Assembly (NCBI GenBank): GCA_016209865.1
Contig: JACQVL010000030.1
Coordinates: 1-5,893 of the forward strand
Length of the DNA: 5,893 nucleotides
Direction of reading: 5' to 3'
Origin: Candidatus Latescibacterota bacterium
Lineage (GTDB): Bacteria; JAAXHH01; JACQVL01
Both the position numbers and the translations under genes were made by a program. The first letter of the stretch is position 1. Each line of letters opens with the position of its first letter. Below, piece by piece: positions 2,894 to 5,893 of this stretch. The notes under the pieces are model-generated. The model saw nothing but the letters and a program-made list of their open reading frames with translations. It was not told where the DNA came from and searched no databases.

Positions 2894-3715
2894 ATGACGA
2901 TCGCCTACTTCGATTGCTTTTCGGGCATCAGCGGGGACATGATCTTAGGCGCCTTAGTCGATGCCGGCCTCGACTTCGACCGGCTGCGGGAGGAGCTGGC
3001 GAAGCTCCCGGTCGCCGGCTACCGGGTCGAGCGGCGACGGGTCAAGAAGCACGAGATCGCCGCGACGAAGGTCGACGTCCTGGTCGAGACGCCCGACGGC
3101 TACGCCCTGGCCGACGTGATCGAGCATGAGCATCCGCATCATCATCACGATCATGACCACGCGCACGACCATCCTCACCCGCACGCGCATGCCCACGGGC
3201 CGGCCCGTCGATTGGGAGAGATTCTTGAGGTGATCGAACGGAGCGGACTCGACCCGGCGGTGCGACAGCGGGCGGCCGCCATCTTCGACCGGCTCGCCGC
3301 GGCGGAGGCGGCGATGCACGGCACGACGAAAGACACGGTGCTTCTGCACGAGGTCAGCGGCTTAGACGCGCTCATCGACATCGTCGGCGCGTGCATCGGA
3401 CTGCATCTGCTCAGCATCGAGGAAGTGTACGCGTCCGCCCTCCCCGTCGGCAGCGGGTTCGTGCGTTGTGCCCACGGCCGGATGCCGGTCCCGGCCCCGG
3501 GCGCGCTCGAACTCCTCCGTGGGACGCCGGTCTACCAGACGCAGACGCGAGGGGAGGTCGTCACGCCGACCGGCGCGGCCATCATCACAACCGTGGCGAA
3601 CGAGTTCGGGCCGATGCCCCGGATGGTGCTCGACCGCGTCGGCTACGGGGCGGGGACGAAAGATTTCGCGGAGCACCCAAACCTGCTGCGTGTCTGCATC
3701 GGGCAGAAGGGCTGA
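2894..3715 (+). CDS. larC: LarC-family nickel insertion protein, LarC1 half only
   Basis: A 273-residue protein of the LarC (formerly DUF111) family. LarC inserts nickel, in a CTP-dependent step, into pyridinium-3,5-bisthiocarboxylic acid mononucleotide to make the nickel-pincer cofactor of lactate racemase LarA and relatives. Seen here are the N-terminal signature AYFDCFSGISGDM, a His-rich stretch at 78-101 with 14 histidines for metal binding, LLHEVSGLDALIDIVG (150-165), GSGFVRCAHGRMPVPAP (187-202), VVTPTGAAI and the GYGAGTKD...PNLLRV ending. Usual full-length LarC has about 400 residues; the LarC2 domain, expected to begin with an ETNIDD-like motif, is absent from all three forward frames downstream. 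The ATG at 2894 has GAGGGG (2882-2887) before it and begins exactly at the family motif; an in-frame ATG at 2813 would translate repeats. No larA, larB or larE is in the window. Activity without LarC2 is uncertain. Confidence 0.9.
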   Translation: MTIAYFDCFSGISGDMILGALVDAGLDFDRLREELAKLPVAGYRVERRRVKKHEIAATKVDVLVETPDGYALADVIEHEHPHHHHDHDHAHDHPHPHAHAHGPARRLGEILEVIERSGLDPAVRQRAAAIFDRLAAAEAAMHGTTKDTVLLHEVSGLDALIDIVGACIGLHLLSIEEVYASALPVGSGFVRCAHGRMPVPAPGALELLRGTPVYQTQTRGEVVTPTGAAIITTVANEFGPMPRMVLDRVGYGAGTKDFAEHPNLLRVCIGQKG

Positions 3716-3895: not shown

Positions 3896-4369
3896 ATGAA
3901 TGACTCCGAGGAGTTTATCATTAATAAGCCACAGGTGATCCATGAGGTCTTCGATGAGGAAGTGGTCGTCGTCAACTTAGGGAACGGCAACTACTACAGC
4001 CTGGAGCACGCTGGCGCGGCGATCTGGGGGTTGATCGAGCAGGGGACGTGTGTGGGAGACATCGTCGAAGGTCTCGTCCGCCAGTACGAGGGGGACCGTG
4101 GGGTGATCCAACAGGCGGTCCAGGCCTTCGTCAGTGAACTGCAGCAGGAAGCCCTCATCGTTCCGGCGCCTGCCCACGAGTCCACCCGCGTGCATGGGCA
4201 ACCGGCTCCGGCCGACAGCGGGTCGAGTCCAGACAAGCGTCCGTTCGAAGTCCCCCGGCTCCAGACATACACGGACATGCAGGAATTGATGCTGCTCGAC
4301 CCGATCCATGAGGTCGACGAAACCGGCTGGCCTCGCGCGAAACCAGAGGACACCGACGAGCAGCGATGA
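3896..4369 (+). CDS. PqqD-like RiPP recognition element protein with a conserved-looking C-terminal tail
   Basis: A 157-residue protein. Residues about 8-92 form a PqqD-like fold, seen in the VVVVNLGNGNYYSLEHAGAA pattern followed by IWGLIEQG and a helical region to about 88. PqqD-type domains (RREs) bind the leader of a ribosomally made peptide and present it to modifying enzymes in the cytoplasm. A Pro/Ser-rich linker (about 90-116) follows. Then comes a tail: Phe117-x2-Pro120-x-Leu122, Tyr125, DMQEL (127-131), LLDPIHEVDE (133-142), GWP (144-146), and an acidic end. The F-x2-P-x-L pattern is like the Y-x2-P-x-L leader motif of lasso peptide precursors. GAGGGAG at 3881-3887 supports the start. 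It is the first gene after the promoter, and its stop overlaps the kinase start. The RRE call is firm; the tail's role as substrate or docking segment is inferred. Confidence 0.85.
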   Translation: MNDSEEFIINKPQVIHEVFDEEVVVVNLGNGNYYSLEHAGAAIWGLIEQGTCVGDIVEGLVRQYEGDRGVIQQAVQAFVSELQQEALIVPAPAHESTRVHGQPAPADSGSSPDKRPFEVPRLQTYTDMQELMLLDPIHEVDETGWPRAKPEDTDEQR

Positions 4370-5442
4370 CGATGTCTCAACACGATCCGTTGAATCCGCC
4401 GGATGCGGTCGCTTTTTTTCGAGCCGCCTGCCAGGCCTTTCGACAGGCTGAACAGGCGGCGGGCGGCACGATCGACCGGGTGTACCGGATCGGGGGCTAT
4501 CCGGTCCGGCTGCGTTTTGCGGGCGCGGCCTTGATCCCGCGTCTCGTCCCGGCTCTGGCGCACCATGAGGCACTGTCCGACGGGCCCCCCCCGGCCCTGT
4601 CGATCTGTCTCTGGGACAGCGCCTCGCTCGGCACGCGGATGCCGCCGCCGCCCTGGTCGTGGGATGACTACCGTGCGCGAGGAGAGGTGCGCGGGTACAA
4701 CGACGGCCACATCTCCACCGCGTTCGCGATGGGGTCCGGAGTGTTGAGTCTGTTGGACGCCAGCCAGAACTTAGCGCTGTACTGGGTTCACGATGCCCGG
4801 CAGCTTCCCGCTTACGAGAGCGGCGCCCCGTTGCTCACGATCTTCTCCTGGTGGATGGGCCGCCACGATCGCCAGTTGGTGCACGCCGGGGCGGTCGGCC
4901 TGCCAGCCGGAGGGGTGCTGCTGGCGGGCCGGGGCGGGACGGGTAAGTCCACCACCGCCCTGTCCTGTCTCCATTCCCCGTTATCCTACGTCAGCGACGA
5001 CTATTGCCTGCTGGCGACGAAGCCCGGTCCTTACGCGTACAGCCTGTACAACTCCGCCAAGCTGGACGCGGAGAGTCTCAGAAGGCTGCCACATCTGGCG
5101 CCAGCGCTCGCGCAGGCCGACCAACTCGACGGGGGAAAAACCCTCCTGTTTCTTCGTGAACGGTACCCGGACAGCATAACGACCGGGTTTCCTGTACGCG
5201 CCATCCTGTTGTCCCGCGTGACGGGCCGGGTCGAGACGACGGTCAGACCGGCATCCCCGACGGAGGGCCTCAAGGCCCTGGCGCCGAGCACGATCTTCCA
5301 GTTGTCCGGCGCGCACCATGCGGCGTTGCAGACGATGGCGCAGGTGGTGAAGCAGGTGCCGTGCTATCACCTGGAACTGGGGACGGAGGTGTCCCGTATT
5401 CCGGAGGTGATCGCGGGGGTCTTATCCGCGTGTAACCCATGA
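4366..5442 (+). CDS. HprK-like P-loop serine kinase, RiPP-cluster type
   Basis: A 358-residue protein. Residues 1 to about 165 are not a recognised catalytic domain. The C-terminal half resembles the HPr kinase/phosphorylase core: His173 in LVHAGAV, Walker A GRGGTGKST (188-196) with Lys194 and Ser195, and Asp211-Asp212 in YVSDDYCLL, the position of the catalytic and metal-binding acids in HprK. SLYNSAKLD (226-234) is typical of HprK-like kinases found beside PqqD-like genes. It lacks the DRTGase-type N-terminal domain of true HprK, and no HPr gene is near. Homologues such as the paeninodin kinase phosphorylate lasso precursors, so a peptide substrate is plausible. The start codon overlaps the previous stop as ATGA, so translation is probably coupled; an in-frame ATG at 4372 is an alternative. 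No transmembrane segment is evident. Substrate is inferred only. Confidence 0.82.
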   Translation: MTMSQHDPLNPPDAVAFFRAACQAFRQAEQAAGGTIDRVYRIGGYPVRLRFAGAALIPRLVPALAHHEALSDGPPPALSICLWDSASLGTRMPPPPWSWDDYRARGEVRGYNDGHISTAFAMGSGVLSLLDASQNLALYWVHDARQLPAYESGAPLLTIFSWWMGRHDRQLVHAGAVGLPAGGVLLAGRGGTGKSTTALSCLHSPLSYVSDDYCLLATKPGPYAYSLYNSAKLDAESLRRLPHLAPALAQADQLDGGKTLLFLRERYPDSITTGFPVRAILLSRVTGRVETTVRPASPTEGLKALAPSTIFQLSGAHHAALQTMAQVVKQVPCYHLELGTEVSRIPEVIAGVLSACNP

Positions 5443-5893
5443 ACCCCGACTTCTTCATCAGCGTCATCGTCCCGGTGCACAACGGCGCCGCGTTCCTGGC
5501 CGACGCGGTTGAGAGCATCCAGCGGCAGGGGGACGCCCCCCTGGAGATCATCATCGTCGATGACGGGTCGACGGACGGGACGGCACAGCTCATCCCACGG
5601 CTTACCGGCAACATCCGGGCGGCGGCTCAGTCCAACCGCGGGCCGGCGGCGGCCCGGAACACCGGACTACGGATGGCGCGCGGGAACGTGATCGGGTTCT
5701 TAGACGCGGACGACCTGTGGCCGGCCAACAAGCTGGCGCTCCAGCTTGCCTGTCTCGCGGATCATCCCGACATCGGCATCGTCCATGGAAGCATTCAGTG
5801 TATAAGGACGAAGGATGAAGGACGAAGGACGAAAAACGAAACATTCTCGGACCCGTACCTCGGCCTGCAATTAGGGAGCGCCCTGTGCAGGGC
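5439..5893 (+). CDS. Family 2 glycosyltransferase, N-terminal part (3' end outside window)
   Basis: The frame is open to the window edge, 151 complete codons. The first 120 residues show a GT-A fold of family 2: SVIVPVHNGAAFLADAVESI (8-27), IIVDDGSTDGT (38-48) with nucleotide-sugar-binding Asp41/Asp42, NRGPAAARNTGL (66-77), and the metal-binding DXD-type motif FLDADDLW (87-94). Such enzymes transfer a sugar from a nucleotide donor at the cytoplasmic side. ATG overlaps the kinase stop as ATGA and I see no Shine-Dalgarno sequence at the right distance, so coupled translation is likely. Residues 122-134 (IRTKDEGRRTKNE) come from an in-frame 7-nt repeat tract, in a loop that follows the strand IGIVHG. 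The acceptor could be the operon's peptide or an unrelated glycan; the missing 3' end and downstream genes would help to decide. Confidence 0.9.
   Translation, partial: MNPDFFISVIVPVHNGAAFLADAVESIQRQGDAPLEIIIVDDGSTDGTAQLIPRLTGNIRAAAQSNRGPAAARNTGLRMARGNVIGFLDADDLWPANKLALQLACLADHPDIGIVHGSIQCIRTKDEGRRTKNETFSDPYLGLQLGSALCR
5804..5838 (+). repeat. Heptanucleotide tandem repeat inside the glycosyltransferase gene
   Basis: Five 7-nt units follow without gaps: AAGGACG, AAGGATG, AAGGACG, AAGGACG, AAAAACG. They are read in frame as part of the glycosyltransferase and encode a charged segment with seven-residue periodicity (RTKDEGR then RTKNE). Because the unit is not a multiple of three, losing or gaining one or two units would shift the frame. 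Confidence 0.9.

Follow-up and report, generated by a model that had tools for sequence, protein, structure and literature searches.

Known RREs are either free-standing domains or parts of enzyme fusions. The window analyzed here, a stretch of 5,893 nucleotides comprising an entire contig (C229) of the 3.75 Mb draft genome of a Candidatus Latescibacterota bacterium, raises the question of whether such a domain may also carry its own precursor-like peptide, since its PqqD-like protein ends with F117-x2-P-x-L, Y125 and DMQEL followed by DPIHEVDETGWP. The original prediction, made from this DNA alone, regarded the protein as a fusion of recognition domain and precursor (or a self-docking or regulatory tail) and its tail as a possible substrate of the adjacent kinase and glycosyltransferase. 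All tail residues it listed are in place (F117, P120, L122, Y125, D127MQEL131, L133LDPIHEVDE142 and G144WP146), and the following features are distinguished:

3896-4369, + strand: open reading frame of the RRE-tail protein (157 aa)
3911-4165, + strand: RRE/PqqD-like domain of the lasso-B1 type (TbiB1 fold), aa 6-90, from PF05402 and structure match
4115-4117, + strand: Ala74, equivalent of Asp70 in LppB (an acidic residue, Asp or Glu, in 38 of the 40 tailless RREs)
4166-4234, + strand: variable linker, aa 91-113 (pLDDT about 41-57)
4235-4294, + strand: leader-like segment, aa 114-133 (K..F117-x2-P-x-L-x2-Y125-x-D-M-x2-L), matching lasso precursors gap-free, with a predicted strand at 123-125
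4295-4333, + strand: putative core-equivalent, invariant end, aa 134-146 (LDPIHEVDETGWP), of top conservation (pLDDT about 50, placement not confident)
4334-4369, + strand: variable C-terminal residues 147-157 and stop codon
4366-5442, + strand: HprK-like kinase gene
5439-5891, + strand: family 2 glycosyltransferase (GT2) gene, truncated by the contig end (PF00535, E 2.5e-31)

As read from the sequence, the RRE-tail gene overlaps the kinase gene, and the kinase gene the start of the GT2 gene, each by ATGA. The predicted adjacency of kinase and glycosyltransferase genes holds, with the correction that the GT2 gene runs off the contig; a repetitive stretch within it (AAGGATGAAGGACGAAGGACGAAAAACGAA at 5806-5845, in frame, TKDEGRRTKNE) resembles a small repeat that has been inserted. 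The kinase scores only 27.1 and 25.9 bits with the models of HprK-related kinases A and B (TIGR04352 and TIGR04355; cut-off 200). Upon inspection of its sequence, the His-Lys-Asp-Asp residues (HAGAVG..GKST..SDDY) that are reportedly essential in lasso-tailoring kinases (PMC9266682) are intact. The sole PF14907 nucleotidyltransferase-like gene of the genome and an ABC exporter gene are located at the end of contig C204, for which we infer a join to C229, this end being probably the opposite side of the assembly gap. Elsewhere in the window, an open reading frame for LarC (nickel pincer cofactor; 2894-3715) contains a His-rich stretch and ends at the LarC1 part (profile positions 1-235 of 375).

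The N-terminal domain belongs to the RRE/PqqD family, as indicated by its PF05402 match at aa 22-88 (E 1.7e-16; 60.7 bits, cut-off 23.4). The best NCBIfam model is NF033536 (lasso_PqqD_Bac) with 59 bits, which is under its 80-bit cut-off, and the equivalog for PqqD of PQQ synthesis (TIGR03859) yields 22.9 bits (cut-off 46). The predicted RRE model matches the TbiB1-leader complex 5v1v (Foldseek E 6e-6), with a VIA Z of 14.2 across 88 residues for the comparison with TbiB1. For the tail, NCBIfam holds no known family, and its motif was not found in the literature searched.

Taken alone, the motif in the window protein is weak and proves little, since 8.1 % of shuffled versions of residues 91-157 contain [YFW]xxPx[LVIFA] (5.5 % the canonical [YW] form); the case rests on the relatives. 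The first homologue search, the seed patterns of which included the tail, retrieved eight relatives from Deltaproteobacteria, Oscillatoria, Nitrospirae, Bipolaricaulota and Chloroflexota, each of which contains DPIHEVDETGWP. Searches of about 1,180 genomes with tail profiles added further divergent members, some of them from Cyanobacteriota genomes of 1.7-2.1 Mb. Every strong match in these genomes is located C-terminal to an RRE, in agreement with the predicted fusion. Neither the stand-alone short peptide that had also been envisaged nor a tail on other proteins was found among the strong matches of the tail profiles (A2 and A3). An acyl-CoA dehydrogenase-like protein with HEVDETGWP (L090) was discarded as a tail carrier, the weak match looking like chance.

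A profile from which the tails had been removed (A4) was searched against 244 Cyanobacteriota and 251 Chloroflexota genomes. The eight top matches in Cyanobacteriota (95-121 bits) are all tailed, while the next-best RREs (at most 66 bits) have no more than about 20 residues following the domain, with the exception of a distant tailed group from small genomes. The same split was observed in Chloroflexota, one match there carrying a second tail type. Since these RRE-only searches reproduce the result, the possibility that the conserved tail is an ascertainment artefact of the tail-containing seeds was rejected. Random tails on RRE homologues, the outcome the original prediction had named as speaking against it, were not seen in the RRE-only searches and are rejected, the matches being either tailed or ending within about 20 residues.

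In a tree calculated from the RRE columns with the tail excluded, 43 tailed sequences are placed on one side of a branch and 40 tailless ones on the other (SH-aLRT 99); the tree is based on few columns, many of its forks are unresolved, and its alignment profile was built from tailed sequences. Because the tailed RREs form one side of this branch, their sequences are consistent with a single origin of the fusion. The tailed family spans at least five phyla. The second tail type is present in two loci, L089 (G851:C723) and L104 (G952:C38), where a leader part with Tyr (YATPELQKYSDMADLLALDP and YQPPVLNVYRDMAEVLALDP, respectively) is followed by the end DPPxPGVxD; both genes adjoin a kinase gene and a PF14907 gene. 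No additional type of tail end was found in the order of G851, for which only 16 genomes were covered.

The tail is the most conserved region of the protein, because the mean frequency of the top residue in 35 non-redundant sequences is 0.84 at positions 135-146 versus 0.47 in the RRE; it amounts to 0.17 in the linker, 0.50 at positions 114-126 and 0.74 at 127-134. D127, D135 and P136 are found in all 35 sequences, H138 and G144 in 94 % and W145 in 97 % of them. The motif [YFW]xxPx[LVIFA] is present in 32 of 42 related proteins, five of which have the Y/W form. The proposed likeness to the Y-x2-P-x-L of lasso leaders thus stands for the motif positions, but has to be amended for the first residue, which is Phe in the window protein (and in 35 of 42 tails) rather than the Tyr/Trp of lasso leaders.

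The likeness extends beyond the motif. Oscillatoria sp. PCC 10802 possesses a lasso cluster about 9 kb from its tailed-RRE cassette (L190) and on the opposite strand, with genes for a cyclase-like protein, a B2-like protein and a tailless RRE as well as two near-identical small open reading frames (KLPYKKPTLTPYGSIQNITQ followed by GISG), called precursors by sequence and context. The tail of the same organism (ending with KLSFEPPKLDKYTDMEDLLLLDPIHEVDETGWP) aligns with these precursors without a gap. Likewise, residues 114-133 of the window protein match three lasso precursors, two of which are near-identical, gap-free and also outside the motif. For residues 123-133, which lie outside the motif, the observed score was reached by 9-13 of 2000 leader shuffles, and the likeness appears only at offset 0, i.e., in the register set by the motif. 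In this register, the penultimate Thr position of the leaders corresponds to residue 132, which is Leu/Met in the tails. Since the lasso register puts the core start at residue 134, DPIHEV..GWP would be the core-equivalent. With a whole RRE clade tailed and its tail in register with lasso leaders, the predicted fusion of a recognition domain with a precursor-like segment is borne out.

Docking of such a segment can be judged from crystal structures of LppB and PbaB1, in which the Y/WxxP of the leader lies between β4 and the helices and the residues after Leu extend the sheet, Asp70 of LppB (PDB 9x8z) forming a hydrogen bond to the leader Tyr (PMC13381572). The column equivalent to Asp70, occupied by Asp/Glu in nearly all tailless RREs, is mostly Ala, Ser or Gly (also Val etc.) in the tailed clade. 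In the five tailed proteins with a Tyr in the tail, the residue is D, D, E, H and H. This column, named from PMC13381572 before the test, ranks first of 85 RRE columns for association with Tyr versus Phe (Fisher p 0.0017, non-redundant set). Because the co-variation comprises only 2-3 independent switches on the tree, co-adaptation of the first motif residue with the groove is suggestive rather than proven. AlphaFold2 modelled the window protein with pLDDT values of 83-95 for the RRE, about 80 for residues 111-130 and about 50 for 131-157, and predicted a strand at 123-125 in leader register; a relative with 38 % identity shows this strand as well, in identical register. The position of this strand corresponds to residues -9 to -7 of the PbaA leader. 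For the strand, two models thus agree with the self-docking tail considered in the original prediction, which had proposed to check by modelling whether F117-L122 lies in the groove; that F117 touches the pocket is inferred from predicted secondary structure and confidence. The tail probably docks in the groove of its own RRE; docking between two molecules could occur instead.

The anticipated role of the tail as kinase substrate is not supported by the sequences, because characterized kinases modify Ser and the tail contains no conserved hydroxyl residue. LppK phosphorylates Ser, and the exchanges S3T and S3Y abolish phosphorylation (PMC13381572), while PadeK modifies a C-terminal Ser (PMC9266682). 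Among the aligned homologues, no Ser, Thr or Tyr is conserved in the tail: position 125 is Y/F/H, position 126 is T/S/E/N/D/R, and position 143 varies between T/A/M/K/E and others, for which reason T143 was rejected as a phosphorylation site. Of 42 tails, twelve are devoid of any Ser, and in 17 no Ser occurs between D135 and the end of the protein. In one member (L047), whose locus nevertheless encodes a kinase, neither Ser nor Thr follows tail residue 121.

Three complete operons (L034, L036 and L038) encode the RRE-tail protein, the kinase, GT2s and a PF14907 transferase, with an ABC exporter in L034 and L036. No peptidase is encoded among the genes of these operons or of an annotated plasmid cassette of Crinalium, no cyclase is listed in the three operons as checked with a single-sequence profile, and a C39 peptidase domain is absent from the L034 exporter. 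PF14907 was detected in all 20 tailed genomes tested, in 19 of them over the cut-off, versus 2 of 14 controls. Of 31 tailed genomes, 21, including the window genome, lack PF13471 (lasso B2), and in the other ten it is located outside the cassette. A separate precursor was not found in the loci, which contain no conserved small or leader-bearing open reading frame but only antisense copies and noise. The kinase and the PF14907 protein have no significant sequence match among proteins of solved structure.

The cassette occurs in a cultured cyanobacterium, Crinalium epipsammum PCC 9333, where it is located as a whole on the mobilizable plasmid pCRI9333.04 (L191; NC_019735.1, 5896-17248) together with FkbM methyltransferase, TPR, SMP-30 and ABC genes; its RRE-tail protein (WP_232229449.1) is annotated as "PqqD family protein" beside a "nucleotidyltransferase family protein" and an "HPr kinase". 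In L121 (6527-8311, - strand) and L123 (156-1949, + strand), the kinase continues into a C-terminal GT2-like sequence within one polypeptide, an arrangement suggesting that the pathway couples phosphorylation to glycosylation. In the Cyanobacteriota genomes of 1.7-2.1 Mb (L070-L072 and L074-L077), kinase open reading frames of about 500 aa precede the RRE-tail gene; their C-terminal part consists of an RRE-like domain and a subsequent leader-like segment (EDNYKLSxIEY..), which is devoid of the DPIHEV end.

The best reading, to which we assign an even chance, is that of a self-loaded RRE adaptor presenting an invariant hook. A precursor of the lasso/LPP type (linear polyphosphorylated peptides) would have been captured, as a C-terminal extension, by the protein that recognizes it, with residues 114-133 as leader and 134-146 as core-equivalent. 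The leader part would occupy the groove of the same polypeptide, its first pocket taken by F117 and its second by L122, with residues 123-125 adding a strand. Since another residue stands in place of the cleavage-site Thr and the cassette genes include no peptidase, the tail would stay uncut, so that the end DMxxLxxxDPxHEVxxxGWP would be held out permanently at a fixed place. It would most likely serve as a hook to which the HprK-like kinase, the PF14907 transferase and GT2s dock and are thereby recruited or activated, enzymes that would make an exported phospho-glycosylated product. This putative binding of partners is suggested by the invariant end and the absence of a conserved acceptor; that the tail end is itself the modified product is less likely.

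A possible, though less probable, alternative is a fused RiPP precursor, with residues 134-146 as genuine core that is modified while the leader is docked, by glycosylation or phosphorylation at Thr126/Thr143 or on Asp, His or Trp, and is perhaps released by an unlinked protease prior to export. The leader-plus-core anatomy is in exact register with lasso precursors, the clusters contain tailoring enzymes and often an exporter with no other precursor, the same set of enzymes acts on a peptide in LPP, and the kinase-GT2 fusions suggest coupled modifications. One leader part combined with two core-like ends (DPIHEV..GWP and DPPxPGVxD) has the appearance of a leader followed by a variable core, which speaks against the hook; by itself, the second end fits either the adaptor or the fused precursor. 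On the other hand, the first end is nearly invariant and devoid of a conserved acceptor, frequently even of any Ser, which the characterized kinases of this type need, and the complete operons provide neither a peptidase nor, in L034, an exporter with a C39 domain. Going further, one may tentatively speculate, with expectations slightly lower still, that RRE, leader and core constitute a one-polypeptide RiPP class in at least five phyla, DPIHEV..GWP being either modified on Asp/His/Trp or a fixed cofactor-like or carrier peptide for an exported phospho-glycan.

It is improbable that the tail acts as a regulatory gate, i.e., as a pseudo-leader closing the RRE until displaced by a separate substrate such as a peptide or surface protein encoded elsewhere. 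According to the two AlphaFold models the leader-like segment can occupy the groove, and the kinases of some small genomes end with an RRE and a leader-like segment lacking DPIHEV. However, most of the clade has lost the groove residue that binds a leader Tyr, rendering competition by ordinary leaders unlikely; moreover, the loci provide no candidate leader-bearing open reading frame, and gating does not need an invariant end. Least credible, with only a slim chance, is a plain structural extension resembling leaders by convergence, the end of which binds a non-RiPP ligand, e.g., a metal or glycan. Invariant Asp, His and Trp and the lack of a literature match for the motif would suit such a function, but what argues against it is that the tail resembles lasso leaders in register and without gaps outside the motif, too, to a degree rarely attained by shuffles, and that an HprK-like kinase and a PF14907 transferase constantly accompany it.

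If the tail docked in cis, genome-mining tools expecting a precursor beside the RRE would report such clusters as orphan. The nearly invariant end represents one short sequence to examine in cultured cyanobacteria, and the tail system could show the roles of HprK-like kinases and PF14907 transferases without a lasso peptide. In the literature searched, as far as its accessible parts extend, no RRE fused to its own leader and a core-like peptide, nearly invariant across phyla, was found; the accessible parts of two RRE surveys (PMC7470986, PMC12710340) describe enzyme fusions, and an RRE-leader fusion was not found there. Borosins (PMC8429565, PMC7878506) provide an earlier example of a core joined C-terminally to the RiPP protein acting on it; their fusion partner is an N-methyltransferase, whereas that of the tailed family is a non-catalytic recognition domain.

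Among known systems, PqqD and stand-alone peptide chaperones share PF05402, but the window cassette has no radical SAM partner. Lasso B1 proteins (TbiB1, PbaB1) and precursors (paeninodin, pseudomycoidin) share the RRE fold and the leader sequence in register, and the paeninodin and pseudomycoidin clusters (PMC9266682) have kinase and nucleotidyltransferase-like tailoring as do the tailed cassettes. Lasso B1, however, is tailless and binds a separate precursor, while the B2 peptidase (PF13471) and asparagine-synthetase-like cyclase that together with an RRE define lasso systems were not found in the tailed cassettes (cyclase searched with a single-sequence profile). The closest system is that of LPP, encoded by the lpp cluster of Paenibacillus alginolyticus (Nat Commun 2026; PMC13381572). 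Common to both are an RRE, an HprK-like kinase, an NTP transferase (LppN type) and an MsbA-like ABC exporter among glycosyltransferases, and no lasso cyclase; the LPP leader is bound through [Y/W]xxPx[L/V] (PMC13381572). The four components occur together in L034 and L036, while in the window genome kinase and GT2 are on C229 and exporter and PF14907 on C204, their linkage being presumptive. Carriers of LPP are Bacillota, those of the tailed family were found in other phyla. The LPP precursor is encoded by a separate gene (leader YxxPxVLxHQxIxFETxxS), has variable C-termini and is phosphorylated at Ser3 of a polyphosphorylated core, whereas the tailed family has a fused segment (FxxPxLxKYTDMQELL in the window), a nearly invariant end and no conserved Ser. 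Furthermore, the LPP leader is cut by the SipW-like peptidase LppS, of which no counterpart is present among the cassette genes of L034, L036, L038 and Crinalium. Because these three defining features differ, the tailed system is not filed as LPP; by analogy, it may work like LPP with a captured precursor.
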